Origin: Allomuricauda sp. NBRC 101325
GTDB taxonomy: Bacteria; Bacteroidota; Bacteroidia; Flavobacteriales; Flavobacteriaceae
Direction: 5' to 3'
Assembly (NCBI RefSeq): GCF_030268205.1
Contig: NZ_BSQF01000002.1
Span: 1,054,001-1,118,000 of the forward strand
DNA length: 64,000 nt
Under the pieces are notes generated by a model. That model worked only from the letters and a program-made list of their open reading frames with translations. It ran no database searches and was not told where the DNA came from. How positions within the stretch are numbered: position 1 is the first letter of the stretch; each line of letters opens with the position of its first letter. Positions 18,531-28,897 of this stretch are shown one piece after another. A program made the position numbers and the translations under genes.

Positions 18531-19298
18531 ATGAAAAAAACACTAGCCATTTTTCTATTGCTTCTTTTTCTATTTCTGGCATGGTATAGCTGGGGGTGGT
18601 ACAAGGAAACAATAGTCTGCTGCCCCGAAGAGGTGGTGGAAATTGAGTACGGTCCATTGATTTTTGACTGTAGCTCGGGAGAAGTCATTACCAACGATCT
18701 TTGGCCCGATAAGAAAGCCGAGATCCTTGTGGGGAAAGTTCCAGGAAAACAATTGTTATTGGTTGGCCCTTATTTTTCCGGTGAAACGGAAAGTGATGGT
18801 TTGGCAAGGGCTGAAAAAGTCAAACTTTTGTTCACTGAGATTCCACCCGAAACCATTTTGGTCGATGCCAGATCAGGTGGGGATTGTGAGGCCAGCAAAA
18901 CCAATATGCTTCATGAACTACGGTATAAATGGGTTACCCGTAGCGACGATGTTATAGAACATCTTGATCATACCAAAGTCTTTTACAAATTCGATTCCGA
19001 CGAAGAAATCACCAATGCGGCCACTTTGGCTTATTTCGATGAATTGGCCACATTCCTCAAAACTTCAGGCGATGCAATTCTTATCACTGGCTATACCGAT
19101 ACGGATGGGGAAGAAGACTACAACCTCGATTTGGGTCTAAAACGTGCACAGGAGTACAAAAACCATTTGGTAAGCCTTGGGGTGGATGAATCAAAAATAG
19201 CCGTTGAGACAAAAGGCGAAGCCGACCCATGGAAACCCAACGATTCGGAGGAGAACAAAAGACTTAACCGACGTGTTGAAATCAAAATAATCGACTAA
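18531..19298 (+). CDS. OmpA-family protein with N-terminal membrane anchor
   Basis: The 255-aa protein has one N-terminal hydrophobic segment (residues 4-22) that is probably an uncleaved anchor, then two related halves. Residues about 45-120 look like a degenerate OmpA-like unit (LLLVGPYFSGETESDGLARAEKV). Residues 140-255 are a standard OmpA C-terminal peptidoglycan-binding domain with ITGYTDTDGEEDYN, LGLKRAQEYKNHL and the closing NKRLNRRVEI. There is no beta-barrel. It likely binds diaminopimelate in the wall from the inner-membrane side. The next gene, a membrane-anchored HhH protein, starts 19 bp later, suggesting a joint function. Confidence 0.88.
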   Translation: MKKTLAIFLLLLFLFLAWYSWGWYKETIVCCPEEVVEIEYGPLIFDCSSGEVITNDLWPDKKAEILVGKVPGKQLLLVGPYFSGETESDGLARAEKVKLLFTEIPPETILVDARSGGDCEASKTNMLHELRYKWVTRSDDVIEHLDHTKVFYKFDSDEEITNAATLAYFDELATFLKTSGDAILITGYTDTDGEEDYNLDLGLKRAQEYKNHLVSLGVDESKIAVETKGEADPWKPNDSEENKRLNRRVEIKIID

Positions 19299-19317
19299 AC
19301 TTTTTAAAAATAAAATC

Positions 19318-19728
19318 ATGGCATTACAACTAAATACAACCGCATGTGATGGTTCAGATGTGTTCTGGACCTGGATATTATGGCTATTGGCCGCTTTTAT
19401 CATCGGACTGATCCTTGGATGGATCCTTAAACAGATTTTTGGTGGAGGTGGGACTTCCACAGTGGTTCAATCCAAAGACGATCTAACCAAAGTGGAGGGC
19501 ATCGGTCCTAAAATCGAAGGTTTATTGAATAACAAGGGGATTAAGAGTTATAACCAGCTATCCAACACCGATGTGGCTACTTTGGAGAAAATCATTTTAG
19601 ATGCTGGACCTGCGTATACAACCCATCGAGGTAAAACCTTGACTTGGCCGGCCCAAGCAAAATTGGCGGAAATTGGTCAATGGGAGGAACTTAAAAAATG
19701 GCAGGATGTCTTAAAAGGAGGGGTTTAA
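19318..19728 (+). CDS. Membrane-anchored helix-hairpin-helix protein
   Basis: The 136-aa protein has a single membrane helix (about residues 15-41, ILWLLAAFIIGLILGWILK), a Gly-rich linker, and a cytosolic helix-hairpin-helix domain with DDLTKVEGIGPKIEGLLNNK as core, the nonspecific DNA-binding fold also seen in COG3743-type proteins. The conserved end HRGKTLTWPAQAKLAE and WEELKKWQDVLKGG is family-typical. The HhH domain probably faces the cytoplasm. Its placement next to an OmpA-like wall-binding protein suggests a wall-membrane-DNA link, which is inference only. It is followed directly by a terminator. Confidence 0.85.
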   Translation: MALQLNTTACDGSDVFWTWILWLLAAFIIGLILGWILKQIFGGGGTSTVVQSKDDLTKVEGIGPKIEGLLNNKGIKSYNQLSNTDVATLEKIILDAGPAYTTHRGKTLTWPAQAKLAEIGQWEELKKWQDVLKGGV

Positions 19729-19752
19729 GGCTCTTTAAAATTAACTTTAAAT

Positions 19753-19788
19753 GAAACCAGTCCTAATAAACGGACTGGTTTCTTTTTT
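19753..19788 (+). terminator. Rho-independent terminator of the OmpA-HhH unit
   Basis: GAAACCAGTCC (19753-19763) and GGACTGGTTTC (19772-19782) form a perfect 11-bp stem followed by six Ts. Confidence 0.93.
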
Positions 19789-19887
19789 GGTGGATTTTAA
19801 GGAAAGCTTTGGAGTCTTAATTCTTTCAACCAGTATATACCCTTTATATTTGCAACGTTTTGATTTTAAAAATGTAAACCAAAATTT

Positions 19888-20316
19888 ATGAGTACAGTAA
19901 AAGAGAACGACACGGTAAAAGTTCATTACACGGGCAAATTGACCAATGGACAGATTTTTGACAGTTCGTTGCAACGCGAACCGTTGGAAGTGGCCTTGGG
20001 TCAAGGACAATTGATTCCTGGATTTGAGAAAGGTTTGATTGATATGGCCGTTAATGAAAAGAAAACCATTACCATAGATGTACAAGATGCCTATGGTGAA
20101 GTCAATGAAAATCTCTTTCAAAAAATATCGATATCCCAATTGCCAGAGGATTTAAAACCTGAAGTTGGTATGGGGTTGGTCGGTACCAATGCAAACGGAC
20201 AACAGCAACAGTTTCGAGTAGCTAAAGTTGAAGCTGAGGATATTATCTTGGACGGAAACCATCCCTTGGCAGGTCAGGATTTGGTATTTGACCTTGAATT
20301 GGTGGAAATATTATAA
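19888..20316 (+). CDS. FKBP-type peptidyl-prolyl isomerase, SlyD-like
   Basis: The 142-aa protein has the SlyD layout: an FKBP half (VKVHYTGKLTNGQIFDSS, then GQGQLIPGFEKGLIDM), an inserted IF chaperone domain (about residues 65-125) and the closing GNHPLAGQDLVFDLELVEIL. It isomerises Xaa-Pro bonds and assists folding in the cytoplasm. The metal-binding His/Cys-rich tail of enterobacterial SlyD is absent, as is usual in this phylum. The gene stands alone between two terminators and marks the left chromosomal border of the AT-rich island that follows. Confidence 0.95.
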   Translation: MSTVKENDTVKVHYTGKLTNGQIFDSSLQREPLEVALGQGQLIPGFEKGLIDMAVNEKKTITIDVQDAYGEVNENLFQKISISQLPEDLKPEVGMGLVGTNANGQQQQFRVAKVEAEDIILDGNHPLAGQDLVFDLELVEIL

Positions 20317-20338
20317 GCATACAGTTTTCAGAAATCAC

Positions 20339-20373
20339 AAAAACGTCTTATCAGATTGGTAGGGCGTTTTTTT
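20339..20373 (+). terminator. Rho-independent terminator of the FKBP gene
   Basis: AAAAACGTC (20339-20347) pairs with GGCGTTTTT (20363-20371), including one G:U pair, and runs into further Ts. Confidence 0.75.
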
Positions 20374-20429
20374 GTATAAAAGTATTCCGTTGTAAGGAAT
20401 ATTACCATTAAAACGACACTTCCAAAGCA

Positions 20430-20489
20430 ATTTTACATAACGTCAAATTATGGTTTTCCAAATTGAATCATAATGTTCTCTCGTTATGT
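20430..20489. repeat. Left copy of a 24-nt island-flanking motif, inside a two-stem imperfect hairpin
   Basis: Positions 20430-20453 match the 24-nt motif found again at 26399-26422, 26514-26537 and, inverted, 26584-26606; it begins ATTTTACATA and ends AAATTATGG. Here the motif is the 5' arm of a larger fold. ACATAACG (20435-20442) pairs with CGTTATGT (20482-20489), and inside it ATTATG (20447-20452) pairs with CATAAT (20469-20474). The two paired boxes are separated by an unpaired internal loop, a plan like that of single-strand recombination sites. A separate perfect 9-bp hairpin (CTTTGCTTA/TAAGCAAAG, 20492-20513) follows. This fills most of the otherwise empty 20374-20808 gap. Confidence 0.7.
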
Positions 20490-20603
20490 TTCTTTGCTTA
20501 GGTATAAGCAAAGCTTACTTCCATAAATTCCCTGAAAAGTTGAGCTAAAAATTTCCTTTTAAAAAATATAATGGAATACTGTTTTGCCGAACCCGCGGCC
20601 TGT

Positions 20604-20621
20604 CCTGAGCGAAGTCGAAGG
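20604..20621 (+). repeat. Short dispersed repeat, CCTGAGCGNAGTCGAAGG family
   Basis: The 18-mer CCTGAGCGAAGTCGAAGG recurs on the other strand at 39585-39602 (one base different) and, with two extra bases, at 57665-57684. It is an intergenic REP-like repeat. Confidence 0.7.
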
Positions 20622-20808
20622 GAGTAGGGGAGGTGAAAGTGTATGGAATGGAATATTAATTCTTACTTTCTTTATGTTTTTCCGTAAACTATTACTTGTT
20701 AAATTTTAGTATATTTAAAATCTCCCCTTTAACGAATCATTTTATTAATCTTTTATTTGAAATCCCTGTTTTACTACATGTGAGAACTTATGTCAAATAA
20801 TAAAGTTT

Positions 20809-21921
20809 ATGGATATAGAAATTTTAAAAGAAACCATTCAAGATTGTAACATTAATTTTCTTATTGGCTCTGGCTTATCAATGCCATATTTAAGTACCCT
20901 CAATAATGTTGAAACATTACTTACCCAATTATCTAATAATGGTACTTTGGATGTAAAAGAAAAAGAAATAATAAGAGCATCTATATTGATAGAATATTTT
21001 GACAATGTCATTTATAAAAACATAAAGATAGTTGACTCAGTTGCAGACGCTAATCTGGAATCCGTTTTAGACCACTATAAATTATTTTTAAAAACATTTA
21101 ATACAATATTATATAGAAGAAAAAGCTCATTACTTAATAAACAAGTTAATTTATTCACTACCAATATAGATGTGTTTTTTGAGAGAGCAATTGAGGAAAC
21201 ACAAGTTGAATTTAATGATGGCTTTTCGGGTAGATTCAATCCAATATTTAGTCTAACAAATTTTAAAAAGTCTTTTTTTAAAAAAAGCTTGCACTATGAT
21301 AACACAACAGAATTACCAGTATTTAATCTGTTAAAGGTACATGGCTCTTTAACGTGGAAATCTGATTCAGATTCGATTTCTTACTCTGATTTATTTGAAG
21401 TTGAAGAAGTACAAAAAATCAGGAAATTGATTAAAAAAGGTGACCTTATTGAAATTGATAAGAAGACAGGGTTTGCTGAATTAGAGGCGAAAGTTAAAGG
21501 TTTAAAACATAAATCTGTGATTTCTAATTTTTTGAAAGCGTATGATAAACTTGCCATTGTTAATCCAACCAAGGAAAAGTTTAGAAATACAATTTTAAAT
21601 CTAAATTATTATGAATTACTGAGAATTTTTGCAAACGAACTAGAAAAAGAGAATACCATACTTTTTGCTATGGGATTTTCATTTGCCGATGAGCATGTTC
21701 GAGAAATATTACTTCGTGCGGCTAATTCTAATCCAACCTTATTAATTAAAGTTTTGGCTCATACTGAAAAATCTGGAAAGGAAACGCAGAAACATCTATT
21801 CAAAGGAAATGAAAACCCAAAATATAATAACATTGAAATTATAACTCCTGTAAAAGGAAGTGAATATGACTTTGAGACAATTAATAATGAGATTTTTGTA
21901 AAACTACTTGAAACTTTATAA
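20809..21921 (+). CDS. SIR2-domain NADase-like protein (first SIR2 of the operon)
   Basis: The 370-aa protein has a SIR2-like Rossmann domain. A GSGLS nucleotide-binding loop lies at residues 20-24, the catalytic-type asparagine is Asn119 in FTTNID, and the catalytic histidine is His178 in LLKVHGSLTW. The C-terminal MGFSFADEHVREIL motif (288-301) is typical of phage-defence SIR2 proteins. In such systems SIR2 hydrolyses NAD+ when infection is sensed, stopping phage growth by starving the cell. No zinc ribbon is present between the histidine and the C-terminal motif. The gene is followed after 3 bp by a HerA ATPase, which identifies the pair as a SIR2-HerA-type system. Base composition is very AT-rich. 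Confidence 0.9.
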   Translation: MDIEILKETIQDCNINFLIGSGLSMPYLSTLNNVETLLTQLSNNGTLDVKEKEIIRASILIEYFDNVIYKNIKIVDSVADANLESVLDHYKLFLKTFNTILYRRKSSLLNKQVNLFTTNIDVFFERAIEETQVEFNDGFSGRFNPIFSLTNFKKSFFKKSLHYDNTTELPVFNLLKVHGSLTWKSDSDSISYSDLFEVEEVQKIRKLIKKGDLIEIDKKTGFAELEAKVKGLKHKSVISNFLKAYDKLAIVNPTKEKFRNTILNLNYYELLRIFANELEKENTILFAMGFSFADEHVREILLRAANSNPTLLIKVLAHTEKSGKETQKHLFKGNENPKYNNIEIITPVKGSEYDFETINNEIFVKLLETL

Positions 21922-21924
21922 CCA

Positions 21925-24174
21925 ATGAATGAAGATTTAAGTATTAAAGAATCAATTTTCAGAATAGGCAAAGTCATATCTGTCGAAGGAAGAGAGATCA
22001 AGATAAAAGTAGATAAGGCAAAAAATAGTTCAAGTTTGCTCTACAAAGGAGAATTGATTAAAAACGTTTCAGTTGGTAGTTATATTAAAATAATAAAAGG
22101 TTTTATCTCCATTATAGGCAAAGTTGAAGGAGAATTAATAAATGAGGATTTAGTTTACAGTAAGAAAGAATATAAAAGCGATAAGCAAAAGGTAAATAGA
22201 GTTTTAAAAGTCAGTCTTTTAGGTTTCTTTAAAGAGATGCGATTTGAAAGAGGTATAAAGGAAATGCCTTTAATTGACAATGAGTGTTATTTATTAGAAA
22301 AAAGTGAATTTGAAGCCGTACATGATTTTATAGGGAAAAATGATGTTCCAATTGATTTAGGAAGATTGTCGTTAGAAAAAGGGCAAAAAGTTAGAGTTGG
22401 TATTAATAGCTTATTTGCAAGCCACATAGGAATTTTTGGAAATACGGGAAGCGGTAAATCATATACTTTAGCTCGCATTTACAGAACACTTTTTGAAAAA
22501 TTTAAAGAAAATCAAAAATTTTCTAAAAAGGCTAGATTCTTGCTAATAGATTTTAACGGTGAGTACATTATCGAAAATGATGAAAAAGAAGATAATGTAA
22601 TAATATCACAGAATTATAAAAAAATTATAAAACTATCTTCTGAAGGTGGTGACAAATACCCAATTGATAAAAATTCAATTGAAAATATTGAAATTTTAAG
22701 CATACTTCTTGATGCAACTGAAAAAACTCAAACCCCATTTTTAAAGCGGTCTCTAAAATATAAGAGTAAAATACTTTTAGATTTTTCGAATATCGATACA
22801 ATTATTGAACAAGAAATAATTCAAGAATTATTTAAAAAGAGTGATAGAGATTTTGGAACTAAAATTCTTATTGATTTCTTTTTTGATTTATTCAACTCAA
22901 TAGAAAACAAAGATGTAATTAGAGATATAAGAAGTTTAATAGAAACCGAATTGGGTAGTAACAATATTACAGGAAGTTACTATTCAATAACTGTAGATAG
23001 GGACAATACAAAAGATGTAAGTTTTGGTAATAGTAGATATCCGCAATATGAACAAGAAAATATAGAAACCTATTTTCTTGCTCCGTTGCGTGATTTATTA
23101 AAAAGTATAGAGTATACGGATTCCAATATAAACCTCATACGTTTAAAAATAATACTAAAATATTACAGAGAAATAATTACTGGTCATTCAAATAAAGAGC
23201 ATTTATCTCCTATGATAAGTAGAATGCACAAAAGATTTGATGAACTTGATAAACTACTTGAAATTAGAAACGAAAAAACTGTCTTTGATAAATTTTTAAC
23301 TGTTATATCATTAAAAAATATTAATGACAACGCAATAAAAAAAGTACTCCCTCTTATTATTTGTAAAGAATTATATGAAAAACAAAAATTAATCAAAGAG
23401 AAAGGGCATTATTTAAATATTATTATAGATGAAGCACACAATGTTTTGTCAAAAGAGTCTATAAGAGAGAATGAGCAATGGAAAGATTATAGGCTTGAAA
23501 CCTTTGAAGAAATTATAAAAGAAGGTAGAAAATTTGGTGTTTTTTTAACTATAGCTAGTCAAAGACCATCTGATATCTCACCAACAATTGTTTCCCAACT
23601 TCACAATTATTTCTTGCACAGACTTATTAATAACAATGATATAAAGGCAATTGAAAGAACTGTTTCATATCTAGACAAAGTTTCTTTTGAGTATCTGCCA
23701 ATTTTACCTACGGGAACATGCATAATGGCTGGCCTATCTGCTCAAGTACCAGTAGTTATTGATATTGCCCGTATCACCAATAAGGATAATGAACCAAAAA
23801 ATAAGACCATTGACCTTATCAAAAATTGGACTGAAGACGAAGGATTGGAAATGGAAGTGGAATTTGAAATTTGGGAGGTTGAAGCAATTAAATGGATAGA
23901 GTTTTTAATGGACAGAGCTGAAGTAGATGATGAAAATAATGCATTAATAATCGAAGGGGATTTCGAAGAAGGGATTATTGGGTTTACTGCTAAAGATAAA
24001 TATGAGATGTTTAGATATTTGGAAAGCGAAGCGGAAAAAGAAGCTATTAATTATATGCCTTTAGATAAGGAAATTAGAGAATATGAAATATCAAGATTAG
24101 ATACACAAAGCTTAATTCAGTCTTCAATTGATAAAAACATATATAAATTACTAATTCTAGGTTGGGCTAGATAA
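21925..24174 (+). CDS. HerA-type hexameric ATPase (FtsK/HerA family) of a SIR2-HerA module
   Basis: The 749-aa protein has an N-terminal HAS-barrel-like region (about residues 10-75). A RecA-like ATPase core follows with Walker A GNTGSGKS at 172-179, LLIDFNGEYI at about 207-215, Walker B NIIIDEAHNV at 498-507 and the SQRPSDISPTIVSQL segment at 545-559. The core is interrupted by a helical insertion (about 250-480). A C-terminal acidic region ends the protein. HerA motors form hexamers that move DNA; with SIR2 they assemble into large antiphage complexes in known systems. Spacing of 3 bp before and 8 bp after makes it the centre of a three-gene operon. Confidence 0.93.
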   Translation: MNEDLSIKESIFRIGKVISVEGREIKIKVDKAKNSSSLLYKGELIKNVSVGSYIKIIKGFISIIGKVEGELINEDLVYSKKEYKSDKQKVNRVLKVSLLGFFKEMRFERGIKEMPLIDNECYLLEKSEFEAVHDFIGKNDVPIDLGRLSLEKGQKVRVGINSLFASHIGIFGNTGSGKSYTLARIYRTLFEKFKENQKFSKKARFLLIDFNGEYIIENDEKEDNVIISQNYKKIIKLSSEGGDKYPIDKNSIENIEILSILLDATEKTQTPFLKRSLKYKSKILLDFSNIDTIIEQEIIQELFKKSDRDFGTKILIDFFFDLFNSIENKDVIRDIRSLIETELGSNNITGSYYSITVDRDNTKDVSFGNSRYPQYEQENIETYFLAPLRDLLKSIEYTDSNINLIRLKIILKYYREIITGHSNKEHLSPMISRMHKRFDELDKLLEIRNEKTVFDKFLTVISLKNINDNAIKKVLPLIICKELYEKQKLIKEKGHYLNIIIDEAHNVLSKESIRENEQWKDYRLETFEEIIKEGRKFGVFLTIASQRPSDISPTIVSQLHNYFLHRLINNNDIKAIERTVSYLDKVSFEYLPILPTGTCIMAGLSAQVPVVIDIARITNKDNEPKNKTIDLIKNWTEDEGLEMEVEFEIWEVEAIKWIEFLMDRAEVDDENNALIIEGDFEEGIIGFTAKDKYEMFRYLESEAEKEAINYMPLDKEIREYEISRLDTQSLIQSSIDKNIYKLLILGWAR

Positions 24175-24182
24175 AATTAATT

Positions 24183-25292
24183 ATGAAAACAGTGTTTATT
24201 TTAGGTGCAGGATTTTCGAAACCTGCTGGAGCTCCTGTTCAGTTTGAATTAATGGAGGATATTATAAATTTAAGAAATCAAGATTTTGATCGTCAAGACA
24301 CAATAGTTGAAAAACTAAATAGATTTGAAGAGTTTTTGGAAAATCAACTTTACATATCTAGACAAAACTTTTATCAAGTAACTCTAGAGGATATTTTCAC
24401 ACCTTTAGACAGATGCATAATTGACAATGTGGCTTATAGAGGGATTTTGCCTAAAGACTTAAAAAGTTTAAGAGAAGATATTTACAATTTGATTGTTGTT
24501 GCTCTTAAGGAAAGGCTGGATAGACATAATAACAAAGGTTACATAGATGATTTTGCCAAAATTATTGTTGCCGAGGCTAAAAAAAGAGTTGAGAACATTA
24601 AAAGAGATACAATTTCAATTTTATCAACTAATTGGGATATACTTTTAGACAACTCACTAAATGATGCAATTCGTAACGTTTATTATAAAAATAATGATAT
24701 AGATGGAGTAGTGGATTACTGTTGTCACGTAAGCTCATATGATGAAGATGATGTTAAAATCAAACCAGGATTACAAGCATTAGGCGAAGGAAAGTATAAC
24801 GTTAAATTGCTAAAACTTCATGGTTCTATGAATTGGCTGCAATGTACTAATTGCCAAAGATTATATATAAAATTCAATAACAAACTTGTTGACTATAGAC
24901 GATTTGGTAATTCGAAATGTAGACATTGTAACAAGAATTATAAGGGAAATGATACAAGTTATTCTTTGGAGAGTAATCTAATTATGCCAACTTTTTTGAA
25001 AGATTTAAATAATTTTCAAGTGAAGTTAATTTGGCAAAATGCAGGAGTAGAATTATCCGAAGCTAATAAAATTGTTTTTATTGGTTACTCACTGCCATAT
25101 GCGGACTTTGAATTACGTCAATTGCTATCAAGAATGGTAAGGCATGATGCCAAAATAGAAGTCGTTTTAAGAGCTAAAGAAAATTTAGAAAATGACCCAA
25201 CTTATAAAAGGTACAAAGATTTCTTTGGGAAGAGAGATATAGTACCAATTGGAAATGGGGTAGAACATTATATAGAAACTATGACTATATAA
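24183..25292 (+). CDS. Second SIR2-domain protein, with zinc ribbon
   Basis: The 369-aa protein is a different SIR2 from the first gene of the operon. It has GAGFS at residues 8-12, Asn150 in LSTNWD, His213 in LLKLHGSMNW, and then a four-cysteine zinc ribbon (CTNC at 221-224 and CRHC at 246-249) in the place used by true sirtuins. The VFIGYSLPYADFELRQLL motif (298-315) closes the domain. It could be an NADase or a deacylase. Known two-gene SIR2-HerA systems have a single SIR2, so a second one after HerA is unusual and may be an additional effector or a regulator. It starts 8 bp after the HerA stop. Confidence 0.9.
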   Translation: MKTVFILGAGFSKPAGAPVQFELMEDIINLRNQDFDRQDTIVEKLNRFEEFLENQLYISRQNFYQVTLEDIFTPLDRCIIDNVAYRGILPKDLKSLREDIYNLIVVALKERLDRHNNKGYIDDFAKIIVAEAKKRVENIKRDTISILSTNWDILLDNSLNDAIRNVYYKNNDIDGVVDYCCHVSSYDEDDVKIKPGLQALGEGKYNVKLLKLHGSMNWLQCTNCQRLYIKFNNKLVDYRRFGNSKCRHCNKNYKGNDTSYSLESNLIMPTFLKDLNNFQVKLIWQNAGVELSEANKIVFIGYSLPYADFELRQLLSRMVRHDAKIEVVLRAKENLENDPTYKRYKDFFGKRDIVPIGNGVEHYIETMTI

Positions 25293-25388
25293 GCGTTAGA
25301 TGTACTAGAATCTAGTTCTGTGACCATAACAAATAAAAAAAATGAGCATGAGGAGGATGAAGAAAATGCGGGCCAGTAGGGGAGTGAA

Positions 25389-25472
25389 TTTGTGACTTGG
25401 CACAAAGAGCCATTGCCCTGGGCTTTGTGTGGGGGCGTGAAACGCCCAAGTAGCGAAGCTACAAGTCACAAA
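25389..25472. repeat. Cloverleaf-like palindromic element (four stems)
   Basis: Four nested inverted repeats fit one 84-nt fold. P1 is TTTGTGACTTG (25389-25399) with CAAGTCACAAA (25462-25472), 11 bp perfect. P2 is CACAAAG (25401-25407) with CTTTGTG (25423-25429). P3 is GGGCGT-GAA-ACGCCC (25433-25447). P4 is TAGC-GAA-GCTA (25451-25461). It is not a tRNA: stem lengths are wrong and there is no T-loop. It lies 96 bp after the SIR2 operon and could be a REP/MITE-like element, a cruciform-forming DNA site or an RNA. Its reading frames look incidental. Confidence 0.6.
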
Positions 25473-25540
25473 GGGTGCGTGGAAGCATATTTTCTTCTTG
25501 ATTTTTTGTTTCTTTTGCATCAAGGCAAAAGATAGAAACC

Positions 25541-25750
25541 CTATAAAGATTTTTTTCTGTGACCAGTTGGGTAAGGTTTAATCTTTTTCTTAAAATCCTC
25601 AATTTCATCTTTCAGTTTCTTATTGGCGTTCGTAATAAGCTCATTTTGTAGTTTCATTATTGCCAATAAATCATGCATCGCATTTAAATTCTCCAATTGA
25701 GCACCGACAATTTGTTCTAAATCTGCCTTGGTATATCCATTTCTACTCAT
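25541..25750 (-). CDS. Small coiled-coil protein divergent from an XRE regulator
   Basis: From the ATG at 25750 the product is 69 aa: MSRNGYTKADLEQIVGAQLE, then a heptad-like stretch rich in Leu, Asn and Lys and a basic tail ending GHRKKSL. The frame extends further upstream (to 25888), but that part is hydrophobic, reads through the promoter region and would collide with the divergent gene, so the shorter start is preferred. I do not recognise the family. The short leading segment KADLEQIVGAQL could be a small DNA- or protein-binding helix pair. It shares a 140-bp regulatory region with the XRE gene at 25891. Confidence 0.6.
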   Translation of the reverse strand: MSRNGYTKADLEQIVGAQLENLNAMHDLLAIMKLQNELITNANKKLKDEIEDFKKKIKPYPTGHRKKSL

Positions 25751-25785
25751 AGAATATATATTTTTTACACAATAGTTTCGATTAT

Positions 25786-25801
25786 CTATACTAAAGTATA
25801 G
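25786..25801. promoter_or_regulatory. Palindromic operator candidate near the coiled-coil gene promoter
   Basis: CTATACT-AA-AGTATAG is a perfect 7-bp inverted repeat with a 2-nt spacer. On the minus strand a TTTTG at 19 nt from TACTTTAG (one mismatch to TAnnTTTG) makes the palindrome overlap the -7 region of the 25541-25750 gene. Confidence 0.5.
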
Positions 25802-25836
25802 AATAAATATCCAAAACCAAAACATTTGATTCAAAA

Positions 25837-25868
25837 TTTGATACAAGTGTATACATAATCTATATTTA
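25837..25868 (+). promoter_or_regulatory. Bacteroidota-type promoter of the XRE gene with a spacer palindrome
   Basis: TTTG (25837-25840) and TATATTTA (25861-25868, one mismatch to TAnnTTTG) are 20 nt apart. The spacer holds ATACA-AG-TGTAT (25841-25852), a perfect inverted repeat with the same 2-nt spacing and similar half-site as the palindrome at 25786. The two sites together suggest autoregulation by the XRE protein. Confidence 0.55.
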
Positions 25869-25890
25869 TGTTGATAAAAATCAAACACTT

Positions 25891-26112
25891 ATGACCAAAC
25901 TAGGTCTATATCTAGCAAAGAAGTCGATAAATAAGGCAGAAGTCTCCAGAAAGACTGGGATAAGTAAATCCCGAATGAGCCAATTGAGTTCTAATGAATC
26001 CACGAAACTTCGTGCAGATGAATTATATCTTATTGCATTGGCTATTGATGTAGATCCTTGTGAAATCTTACAAGAAGTCTGTGGAGATATTAAACTACAG
26101 GAAGAGCATTAA
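25891..26112 (+). CDS. Small XRE/Cro-CI-type transcriptional regulator
   Basis: The 73-aa product is a bare helix-turn-helix of the XRE family. The SINKAEVSRKTGISKSRMSQLS segment (about residues 13-34) is the HTH, followed by TKLRADELYLIALAIDVDPCEIL, the standard third-to-fifth helices. The size and sequence are typical of a small regulator widespread in flavobacteria. It likely binds the two palindromes in the upstream region and controls itself and the divergent coiled-coil gene. It lies between the cloverleaf element and the right-hand repeats of the island. Confidence 0.9.
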   Translation: MTKLGLYLAKKSINKAEVSRKTGISKSRMSQLSSNESTKLRADELYLIALAIDVDPCEILQEVCGDIKLQEEH

Positions 26113-26398
26113 ATTCTATTTGACATAATATTAAGAACCAAAAAAAAGTTTCAATTAGGGGGGTATTTGAGCAAGTGCTTAGAAATTTATGCTCCGCTAA
26201 ATTTTAAGCTTTTGCGACAAGCTGACGAGATTTTACTGAAATTTTTCTTCTCCAAATTTTCAATTAAACCAAAGGTTTCAATACATACGAAAAGCTAAGC
26301 TTTTAATGGCGCTGGCCAAGTGGCTGAGAATTGCGTATAAAAATAAATGCAAGGGCATTTAGTTTTTATGAAAGCAATGTGCTGTTGGCCGAGCGGCT
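26113..26398. other. AT-rich gene-free stretch with small palindromes
   Basis: No plausible gene is seen on either strand. It contains AAAAGCT-A-AGCTTTT (26289-26303), several direct AAATTTT/AAATTTTT repeats and a GGCCGAGCGGC-type palindrome at its right end. It looks like decayed or non-coding mobile DNA continuing into the repeat at 26399. Confidence 0.5.
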
Positions 26399-26422
26399 AT
26401 TTTACATAGCGACAAATTATAG
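26399..26422 (+). repeat. Third-site copy of the 24-nt island motif (direct orientation)
   Basis: This copy starts ATTTTACATAGCGAC and ends AAATTATAG, differing from the 20430 copy at only a few positions. TAGCG (26407-26411) may pair with CGCTA (26452-26456) around a CGGC-GTA-GCCG hairpin, again giving a two-stem plan. Confidence 0.65.
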
Positions 26423-26512
26423 ATACAAATGCAAAGATGCGGCGTAGCCGACCGCTAGTGAATGTTTCATGACCCCGTTGAAAATTTCAATCTATGACGC
26501 TCGCATGAGGGA

Positions 26513-26607
26513 TATTTTACATAATGGAAAATTATAGCTTACGGATGGCGAAACCCTTAAAAATCAACATGACGACATTTGTACTATAATTTACATTATG
26601 TAAAATA
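26513..26607. repeat. 95-nt inverted-repeat element made of two facing copies of the motif
   Basis: The left arm 26514-26537 and the right arm 26584-26606 are inverted copies. ATTTTACATAATG pairs perfectly with CATTATGTAAAAT (13 bp), then a small bulge, then nine more pairs ending ATTATAG/CTATAAT; a flanking T:A pair adds one. The 46-nt loop codes for nothing visible. It ends 41 bp before the universal stress protein gene and forms the right border of the AT-rich island. Confidence 0.75.
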
Positions 26608-26647
26608 GGTTATTTCAAACCTTCAGAAAACCCATCCTATTCTACTT

Positions 26648-27394
26648 CTATGCCAAAATCATTAAGGGAATCTTCGATTTACGGATAACAGCCTTTATTG
26701 GACTTGTTTTAAACCACATATGCTTTCCTTCATCCTTGGAAACACACAACAATTGGATATTAGTTTTAGCCACATAATTTACCATGCTGTCCAAGGCATT
26801 GGAACCTTTGCTGAAAACAAATGAAATGGTTTTTTGTCCCAAATATTTCTTTGCTTTAGAAATCTTGTCTTTTTTAATATGAAACAAACGAACAGGATTA
26901 TCATCTTTTGGATTTAGATTTTTAATTATTTGCAGACCACTTTCTTTGATACCTCCGCCAAAAATGCCAAGATTCATTTCTTTAAAGCTATACAGTTCAT
27001 CGTCTTGGCCCAATAGTAAAATATTGGTATGATCGGTCTGCCTAATCACCAAATCGGTAATGCTTTGTCCAAAGAGACTTGAAAACCTTCGCTTTTTCCC
27101 CAGCACTAGAAAATCAGGTTGTTCACTGGTCAAATATGTCAGCACCTGCTTTTTTACGGTACCCTTTTTTAGGGTATAATTGATGGGCAACGAGCCTTTA
27201 TTCGAAAATTTGGAGACCAACACCTCTAGATCAACTTTTGAGGATATATCATCCTAATAAAAATATCGGCTGCTTTTTACATGAAATACTTCCACAATAC
27301 CACCAATAGCATTAGCCAAACCGATAGCATTTGCCAGAACAATTTCCGAATCCTTGGATAGATCGAGCAAAACAGAAATGTGATAGGTTTTCAT
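26648..27394 (-). pseudogene. Universal stress protein interrupted by an in-frame amber codon
   Basis: A minus-strand frame from ATG at 27394 reads MKTYHISVLLDLSKDSEIVL, a normal UspA-type start, and reaches TAG at 27254-27256 (codon 47). It then continues in the same frame to TAA next to 26648 with clear Usp features (KKQVLTYLTSEQPDFLVLGK, then a second half ending IRKSKIPLMILA). The intact product would be 248 aa, a two-domain Usp. A restart at GTG 27223 could give 191 aa but would lack the first strand and nucleotide loop. No frameshift is needed, so this is a single nonsense change or a sequencing error. Confidence 0.8.
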
Positions 27395-27526
27395 TAGGTC
27401 AAGTTTTGATGCATTCCTTTAAATGTAACATCAAAAGTCTTAATAATCAATTGTTTAACTATTCTTAAACATCAAAATCACAAATGCTCAATTTTTTGGG
27501 TAATAAATTATGTATTGAAAAATATT

Positions 27527-28897
27527 TTAAAATAAATATTTTATTTTTCTCATTATATAATCAGAAATTCCATAAGGTGCATAACGCAAAGGAACATCAA
27601 ACCAAGTGGCATGTTTTATGATCGATTTGTGGTGCGAAAAAAGGTCAAAACTATGTTTTCCGTGATAGCCCCCTATTCCAGATGCCCCCACTCCTCCAAA
27701 AGGCAATTGTTTATTGCTGATGTGCACTACGGTGTCATTTATGGTGCCTCCACCAAAAGAATAATCGTTCATCAATTTTTGTTGAAATGCTTTGTCTTGT
27801 GAAAACACATAAAACGCCAAAGGTTTTTCATATCGAGAGACCACATCGTGAATTTCACTTACATTTTCATAGGAAATAATGGGTAAAATAGGACCGAATA
27901 TCTCGTCCTCCATCAATTTACTGTCCAAGGTTGGCTCATCAACCAATGTCGGGGCGAAAAATTGGTCTTTGTCATTATAGGAACCTCCTAAGAGCACAGA
28001 CTCCCCTTCAAGTTTCTGTTTTAGGCCTTCATAATGTTTAGGGGTTGCAATTCGGGCAAGATCTTTTGACAGCTCTAAGTTTTCACCATAAAACGCTGTG
28101 ATGTACTTTTTTAATTCGTTTATCAATGCCTCCTTTTTAGAGGCATGTACCAAAATATAATCCGGAGCTATGCAGGTTTGGCCTGCGTTGATAAATTTTC
28201 CCCAGGCAATTCGTTTGGCAGCCAGTGGAGCTTTAGCGGTTTCATCCACCACACAAGGATTTTTCCCGCTCAATTCCAAGGTTACCGGTGTAAGATGTTC
28301 TGCTGCACTCTTGTAGACAATTTTGCCCACCTGCGTACTTCCCGTAAAGAAGATATAATCCCATTTTTCGGCCAATAATGAAGTGGATACCTCTACTCCA
28401 CCCTCAACCACAGCAACATATTCTTGAGGAAACACTTTTTGTATGATTTCCACAATGATTTTGGAGGTGTTCGGACTCAATTCAGAAGGTTTTAATACAG
28501 CTGTGTTCCCAGCGGCCAAAGCCCCGATTAAAGGTGCAATCACCAATTGAAAAGGATAGTTCCAAGGGGCAATGATCAATATTTTGCCATAGGGTTCGGG
28601 CTGAATCCAATCCTGGGATGGAAAATTGCTCAACGAACTGGAAACGCGAATGGGCTCGCTCCATTCCCCTATCTTTTTTATGGCATGGTTGAGTTCGGCC
28701 AAGACAAACTGGGTCTCTGTGGCCATACTTTCAAATTTGGGTTTTTTAAAATCGGCATAGAGCGCATCGCAAATGGCATCTTCCTGTTCGGTTATCTCCT
28801 CACTTAACTTTTTCAAGTATTTCTTTCGGAAGGCCACGTCCTTTGTTTGTTGCGAAGCAAAAAACATTTGTTGAGCTTGAACCAGTTCTTTGATCAT
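27527..28897 (-). CDS. Aldehyde dehydrogenase, class 3-like
   Basis: The 456-aa protein oxidises aldehydes to acids with NAD(P)+. The NAD-binding region APWNYPFQLVIAPLIGALAAGN and FFTGSTQVGKIV, the glutamate motif LELSGKNPC, and the nucleophile Cys in NAGQTCIAPDYILV are all present. The length and the hydrophobic C-terminal end (APYGISDYIMRKIKYLF) match the class 3/fatty aldehyde group, which may associate with the membrane. It stands alone, between the broken universal stress protein gene and a lipoprotein gene with its own terminator. Confidence 0.94.
   Translation of the reverse strand: MIKELVQAQQMFFASQQTKDVAFRKKYLKKLSEEITEQEDAICDALYADFKKPKFESMATETQFVLAELNHAIKKIGEWSEPIRVSSSLSNFPSQDWIQPEPYGKILIIAPWNYPFQLVIAPLIGALAAGNTAVLKPSELSPNTSKIIVEIIQKVFPQEYVAVVEGGVEVSTSLLAEKWDYIFFTGSTQVGKIVYKSAAEHLTPVTLELSGKNPCVVDETAKAPLAAKRIAWGKFINAGQTCIAPDYILVHASKKEALINELKKYITAFYGENLELSKDLARIATPKHYEGLKQKLEGESVLLGGSYNDKDQFFAPTLVDEPTLDSKLMEDEIFGPILPIISYENVSEIHDVVSRYEKPLAFYVFSQDKAFQQKLMNDYSFGGGTINDTVVHISNKQLPFGGVGASGIGGYHGKHSFDLFSHHKSIIKHATWFDVPLRYAPYGISDYIMRKIKYLF

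Follow-up and report, generated by a model that had tools for sequence, protein, structure and literature searches.

The 64,000-nucleotide stretch analyzed here (hereafter the window; Allomuricauda sp. NBRC 101325, assembly GCF_030268205.1, contig NZ_BSQF01000002.1, positions 1,054,001 to 1,118,000) carries three tightly spaced forward-strand genes that encode a sirtuin, a HerA-type ATPase, and a second sirtuin. Gene 1 (20809..21921, 370 aa) is a SIR2_2-type sirtuin and the presumed NADase partner of HerA, with N119, D121, and H178; gene 2 (21925..24174, 749 aa) is the HerA-type ATPase, with the Walker A motif GNTGSGKS (residues 172-179) and the Walker B motif DEAH (502-505). Gene 3 (24183..25292, 369 aa), which we read below as a candidate portable accessory sirtuin, has N150, D152, and H213, four cysteines (C221, C224, C246, and C249), and a GYSLPxAD motif near its C-terminus. 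All three genes are intact and separated by gaps of 3 and 8 bp, as placed by the first-pass annotation, which had proposed a three-component SIR2–HerA–SIR2 arrangement. The SIR2–HerA pair is known; the third gene is what is new at this trio.

Genes 1 and 2 make up a SIR2–HerA pair of the ordinary kind. This system appears in published work as Gao_19, SIR2–HerA, or Nezha (PMC12322248, PMC11559045, PMC11514479), and the earlier statement that SIR2 plus HerA is an established antiphage pair is borne out both by this literature and by matches to solved complexes: the gene 1 profile matches the SIR2 chains of 8j4u and 8yhx as well as 8w9l, and the HerA profile matches chains of 8yho, 8wiv, and 8j4u (8j4u_M). 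Pfam SIR2_2 (PF13289) scores 42.5 bits on gene 1. We performed an alignment pattern scan for HerA across one genome per species (84,980 species), which gave at least 181 relatives, with several phyla represented and the best 80 kept. In 70 of these 80 best-matching loci a strict script placed a SIR2 of the gene 1 family directly upstream of HerA; among the remaining ten, the SIR2 gene adjoins HerA with a longer overlap (two loci), lies upstream of a split HerA (two), is partial or broken (two), meets a contig edge (three), or is separated from HerA by other open reading frames (ORFs; L079). In the Photorhabdus thracensis record (L101), the pair looks broken because its HerA is split into two ORFs of 352 and 247 aa. 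Each of N119, D121, and H178 of gene 1 is conserved in 69 of the 70 paired relatives, the exception being a gap, and none of the 70 lacks the Walker A lysine of HerA. The catalytic motifs that the first-pass annotation listed for gene 1 (Asn119/His178) and for HerA (Walker A and B) are intact. Pairwise distances of the two proteins are correlated (r = 0.79; maximum 0.16 in 1000 shuffles).

In the parts of the literature available to us, the known system is described as twelve SIR2 and six HerA subunits in a complex that depletes NAD+ (PMC11559045; the assembly is also given in PMC12198126). Mutation of the SIR2 active site abolished immunity, deletion of herA weakened it (PMC11559045), and according to a review from 2025 (PMC12198126) it is not yet clear what triggers the system. 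The HerA of the window is longer than those of its paired relatives (749 aa vs 510-682 aa); its C-terminal extension of about 110 aa (23833..24171, forward strand) is absent from the HerAs of L015, L016, and L222 and had no significant match among the ORFs of the loci collected at that stage. The idea that the trio needs this extension was set aside, since the second trio (L222, below) has a HerA that lacks it.

The second SIR2 gene called by the first-pass annotation is real. An AlphaFold2 (AF2) model and fold matches give gene 3 a sirtuin fold, and its Asn150/His213 pair is present as claimed. The close relatives of gene 3, which share 45–84% identity and which we refer to as the close clade, have N150, D152, and H213 without exception, and the four Zn-type cysteines, arranged as CxxC-CxxC after the HGS motif, are invariant in 7/7 close-clade rows. 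Canonical sirtuins carry a Zn ribbon at the corresponding position after the HGS motif. In HMMER alignments to solved SIR2 chains, N150 and H213 of gene 3 correspond to the Asn and His of the V. cholerae SIR2, in which N168A or H227A is described as abolishing immunity (PMC11559045). By our reading, the C-terminal GYSLPxAD motif resembles that of SIR2_2 proteins such as gene 1, where it reads GFSxADEH.

Family models place gene 3 at some distance from known groups. Pfam SIR2 (PF02146) scored 18.4 bits (cut-off 24) and NCBIfam deacylase models 13.6-14.8 bits (cut-offs 221-320), and Pfam SIR2_2 (PF13289) was not listed in a scan to E 10, although HMMER by its filtering discards most matches with an E value over about 0.1. 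A second copy or paralogue of gene 1 was considered and rejected, as the gene 1 profile gave no match to gene 3 at E values up to 10. A search with defense models in PADLOC, suggested by the first-pass annotation, recognized the HerA (best model PDLC04097) and matched gene 3 weakly, its best score of 41 bits coming from a SIR2 model that is not the top one for gene 1; three close relatives of gene 3 scored 33-38 bits and a distant one 53 bits. PHROGs had no match to the gene 3 of the window, and the phage collection had none to it or to the copy at L162. Among viral contigs, the single protein as query matched none, alignment A3 matched eight, and alignment A5 matched three of those eight. The six plasmid matches had 23-27% identity, and none lay beside HerA in the five of six neighborhoods read.

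We searched for gene 3 in overlapping whole-genome samples at the level of order (395 genomes), phylum (395), family (397), and genus (71), with further samples from the genus of G1109 (n = 3) and the family of G172 (n = 216); seven additional matches in the phylum sample (one strong, six weaker) lie outside the locus counts below. Within the host family, the close-clade alignment found matches in two genomes out of 397, namely the source of the window and G1109; within a related family it found three out of 216: G172, which was already known, G1226, and G1247. At four of these five Bacteroidota loci gene 3 adjoins SIR2–HerA, or at three of four once the window, which prompted the search, is set aside. 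Gene 3 does recur next to such pairs, a point that the first-pass annotation had raised. These SIR2–HerA loci show three gene orders and HerAs of three PADLOC models. In another genus of the host family (G1109, L222) the same trio recurs in the same order, with a 17-nt overlap of HerA and gene 3 and with 51% identity to the window for SIR2, 48% for HerA, and 84% for gene 3. At L228 (G1247) all three genes share a strand in the order gene 3–SIR2–HerA, their junctions being a 65-bp gap and an 11-nt overlap, and at L227 (G1226) gene 3 is divergent and lies 861 bp from the pair. The best HerA models are PDLC04097 for L222 as for the window, PDLC04103 for L228, and PDLC04105 for L227.

As a control, we examined a distant gene 3-like family, and none of the 29 loci read adjoins SIR2–HerA within flanks of about 1.5 kb, or less in two cases. 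Adjacency at 3/4 close-clade loci (window excluded) vs 0/29 control loci gives a Fisher p of 0.0007, with the control loci not independent of each other, as 11 of the 29 lie in what we read as one chromosomal context. In 11 loci of family f31 (L135-L137, L139-L141, L143, L144, L147, L152, and L154) the distant gene follows a 226-227-aa gene that we take to be rsmG-like, and in several of them a presumably PadR-like gene comes after it, which suggests a resident rather than mobile role for this distant gene.

Trees of 45 rows were used to place HerA and gene 1. The HerA of the window is nearest to those of L024, L026, and L025, all three without gene 3, and the HerA of L222 is nearest to those of L052, L043, and L015, of which L043 and L015 are without gene 3; gene 3 cannot be excluded at L052 because that locus ends 202 bp past HerA. 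A sister relationship of window and L222 was rejected for HerA (approximately unbiased [AU] test p = 0.00014) and for gene 1 (p = 0.00086), on which ground the trio as one old unit inherited whole was set aside. The gene 3 copies of window and L222 are sisters with 97/100 support and are under strong purifying selection (0.10 nonsynonymous [pN] and 0.77 synonymous [pS]); in the same tree L228 is a long branch whose exact place is unsure. On this discordance, either gene 3 came to SIR2–HerA on two or more occasions or the neighboring pair was swapped. Some caution about rejecting shared ancestry of the trio comes from upstream non-coding DNA (20427-20524 and 20616-20726), which also aligns between window and L222 and could reflect either shared ancestry or dispersed repeats.

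Relatives of gene 3 also occur on mobile elements. Three IMG/VR contigs (L161-L163) carry copies of 47-50% identity, and two P4-type satellites, the IMG/VR record G1309 and E. coli strain 65COLEC, carry both gene 3 and SIR2–HerA about 7 kb apart. The IMG/VR one, on which L161 lies, looks, by our reading of its ORFs, like a P4-type satellite, with SIR2–HerA beside an integrase-like gene some 7 kb from gene 3. Among 5426 E. coli genomes, 13 have gene 3; five of these 13 loci were read to the integrase end (L218 and L232-L235) and one more was read in part. In strain 65COLEC (L232) SIR2 and HerA lie at the integrase end, the HerA with PDLC04105 as its best PADLOC model. At all five fully read loci the gene 3 relative stands just after the primase gene, at the end far from the integrase, and is annotated as a hypothetical protein.

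Our favored reading, held with doubt and confidence about equal, is that gene 3 is a portable accessory sirtuin, most likely acting alongside SIR2–HerA as a second NAD+-cleaving effector. By analogy with the solved complexes, genes 1 and 2 would form an antiphage module in which a SIR2 dodecamer sits on a HerA hexamer; infection would trigger it to destroy NAD+ and stop phage growth. Gene 3 would be a separate SIR2-fold protein with the sirtuin-type four-cysteine motif, repeatedly recruited to, or exchanged between, distant SIR2–HerA pairs; as a probable second NAD+-cleaving enzyme it would add to the response or make up for its loss. Since the HerA and SIR2 partners are only about 25-50% identical to each other, gene 3 is probably not tied to a specific interface. 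An NAD+-cleaving effector is favored over a deacylase because of N150 and H213, the invariant counterparts of the V. cholerae Asn and His, and the likeness of GYSLPxAD to the motif of gene 1. The analysis shows which genes are present and how they are coupled, which catalytic and cysteine residues are conserved, what fold is predicted, that the arrangement recurs, and that the trees disagree. From these we infer NADase activity, Zn binding, an antiphage role, and cooperation; likewise, all three proteins may be active in one three-component system, as the first-pass annotation suggested.

Several observations weigh against this reading. Of the 80 best-matching HerA loci none shows gene 3, which is therefore dispensable; a stretch of 1.2 kb or more is visible downstream of HerA in 70 of these loci, and on either side in 58. 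Gene 3 was likewise found in 0/11 SIR2–HerA loci on viral contigs within the stretches examined, with the record of one of these (L172) carrying gene 3 elsewhere (L161). The positive sample consists of five Bacteroidota loci, and the control includes the non-independent loci noted above. In G172 (L005), whose gene 3 is 52% identical, no SIR2–HerA lies beside gene 3, with only 2.6 kb of contig to the left; a SIR2–HerA pair is present on another contig of that genome. Four of the five E. coli satellites read carry Drt3a/b at the integrase end and no SIR2–HerA there, and the prophage-like records of L162 and L163, possibly fragments, have no HerA match, so an element that carries gene 3 need not carry SIR2–HerA. 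Sixteen E. coli genomes have something like the SIR2–HerA of L172, and the five named ones are not among the 13 with gene 3. Finally, N/D/H motifs also occur in deacylases and thus do not prove NADase activity of gene 3. Gene 3 is not a core or constant part of SIR2–HerA. Of the earlier proposal of a SIR2–HerA–SIR2 arrangement, what stands is that the order recurs in another genus (L222) and that relatives of gene 3 lie beside two other SIR2–HerA types (L227 and L228); what does not stand is the third gene as a fixed component.

In a less probable but still credible reading, gene 3 of the close clade serves SIR2–HerA immunity as a dedicated and exchangeable third part: a sirtuin with a Zn ribbon that fits into different SIR2–HerA machines (three HerA models, three gene orders) and alters their output, for example through a second product derived from NAD or through evasion of phage counter-defense directed against the first SIR2. 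If so, one SIR2–HerA system would contain two different sirtuins, to our knowledge for the first time, and would be modular.

It seems unlikely that gene 3 co-assembles with gene 1 as a second SIR2 subunit of its ring, for example as one of two stacked layers, to alter substrate, trigger, or threshold. The fold of gene 3 matches the subunits of SIR2–HerA, as such a role would have it, but gene 3 is 84% identical between window and L222 while its partners there share only about half of their residues and do not group as sisters, and it accompanies HerAs of three models and occurs on records in which no HerA was found. Cooperation without a specific interface is favored over co-assembly because gene 3 stays nearly unchanged while its partners change.

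We also doubt that gene 3 is an autonomous single-gene defense factor that accumulates in defense islands and satellites whatever its neighbors. A pure hitchhiker was our first conclusion, drawn from the 80 HerA loci, from L005, and from the distant plasmid matches, and it was overturned by the close-clade search. Consistent with hitchhiking are the copies without SIR2–HerA in prophage-like L162 and L163, the copy at L005 next to a gene read as transposase-like, the position of gene 3 at the far end of P4-type satellites that have Drt3 as other cargo, and the variable filling of the interval that holds the trio. Against it, SIR2–HerA specifically adjoins gene 3 at three of the four non-window Bacteroidota loci, in three gene orders when the window is included, and the two occur together on two distinct P4-type satellites. 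Very unlikely, finally, is a regulator or modifier that would use NAD+ for deacylation or ADP-ribosylation to restrain or license SIR2–HerA, its Zn ribbon kept as in protein-acting sirtuins: the four invariant cysteines fit it, as do weak profile matches around the cysteine region that link gene 3 to canonical sirtuin deacylases but stay below cut-off, but the C-terminal motif resembles that of SIR2_2 proteins by our reading, and the lack of gene 3 at all 80 HerA loci argues against any general need for a restrainer.

We compared the trio with known systems. It shares with SIR2–HerA the order and coupling of genes 1 and 2, the catalytic residues, and the profile matches to solved chains, and it differs by the third gene and the longer HerA C-terminus, the system being described as two genes in the published accounts available to us. 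A literature search, with bioRxiv preprints and most subscription papers outside its reach, found no SIR2–HerA with a second sirtuin and no existing name for the three-gene set, a possibility left open by the first-pass annotation. SIR2 proteins are reported on P4 and P2 hotspots in the portion of Rousset et al. 2022 seen (PMC9122126); relatives of gene 3 likewise lie on P4-type satellites and prophage-like contigs, whereas the E. coli copies of gene 3 are far from the integrase end and annotated as hypothetical. The SIR2 NADases KomC and ThsA share the fold with gene 3, with profile matches around its GAGxS and catalytic regions, and differ in that gene 3 has the four-cysteine motif and no large further domain. 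KomC belongs to the Kongming system and ThsA to Thoeris. The matched chains of DSR2 and SPARSA are about 1000 and 580 aa long vs 369 aa for gene 3, and the Zn-ribbon sirtuins CobB and SIRT5 differ in that gene 3 falls below the Pfam SIR2 and NCBIfam deacylase cut-offs.

The trio lies in a variable interval (20317..26647) between an FKBP gene (19888-20316) and a UspA-like gene (26648-27223). We compared this interval with that of eight other species of the genus, and it holds different genes in all eight (in L216 it was covered to a point short of UspA): among them, in L214, a cytosine methylase with an HNH endonuclease; in L210, a DndB match that is weak and below cut-off; in L216, a DUF4209 protein; and in L211, a protein of the NTase-substrate-binding type. 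At E ≤ 1e-10, gene 3 had no match in the other 70 genomes of the genus, the window's own being the only one of 71. Given this variable content and the absence of gene 3 from those 70 genomes, the cassette is probably a recent, local acquisition. Downstream of the trio, a small gene of the Cro/C1 helix-turn-helix (HTH) type (25891..26112, forward strand; Pfam HTH_26) is at most a candidate member of the system; small HTH-like ORFs were seen by eye in four of the eight relatives' intervals, one of them (L211) confirmed by Pfam. A 28-nt repeat with TTTTACATA flanks the cassette in three copies (20426-20453, 26395-26422, and 26510-26537), two of them at 82% identity to the third, and is possibly a dispersed element. 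An Rfam scan of 19000-28000 gave nothing reaching the gathering threshold, and the count of promoter- and terminator-like sites was below the mean of shuffles.

Sirtuins that deplete NAD+ form one of the main classes of effectors in bacterial immunity, and several structures of SIR2–HerA have been solved. Gene 3 defines a small family with Zn-type cysteines to which the PADLOC SIR2 models give only weak scores and whose members in E. coli satellites are annotated as hypothetical, and because of this, census tools may count loci that carry it as ordinary two-gene systems. A portable second sirtuin on distant SIR2–HerA pairs would be a natural experiment in what such a protein can bring to an existing defense, be it an added effector, a changed trigger, or a backup for a sirtuin blocked by phage.
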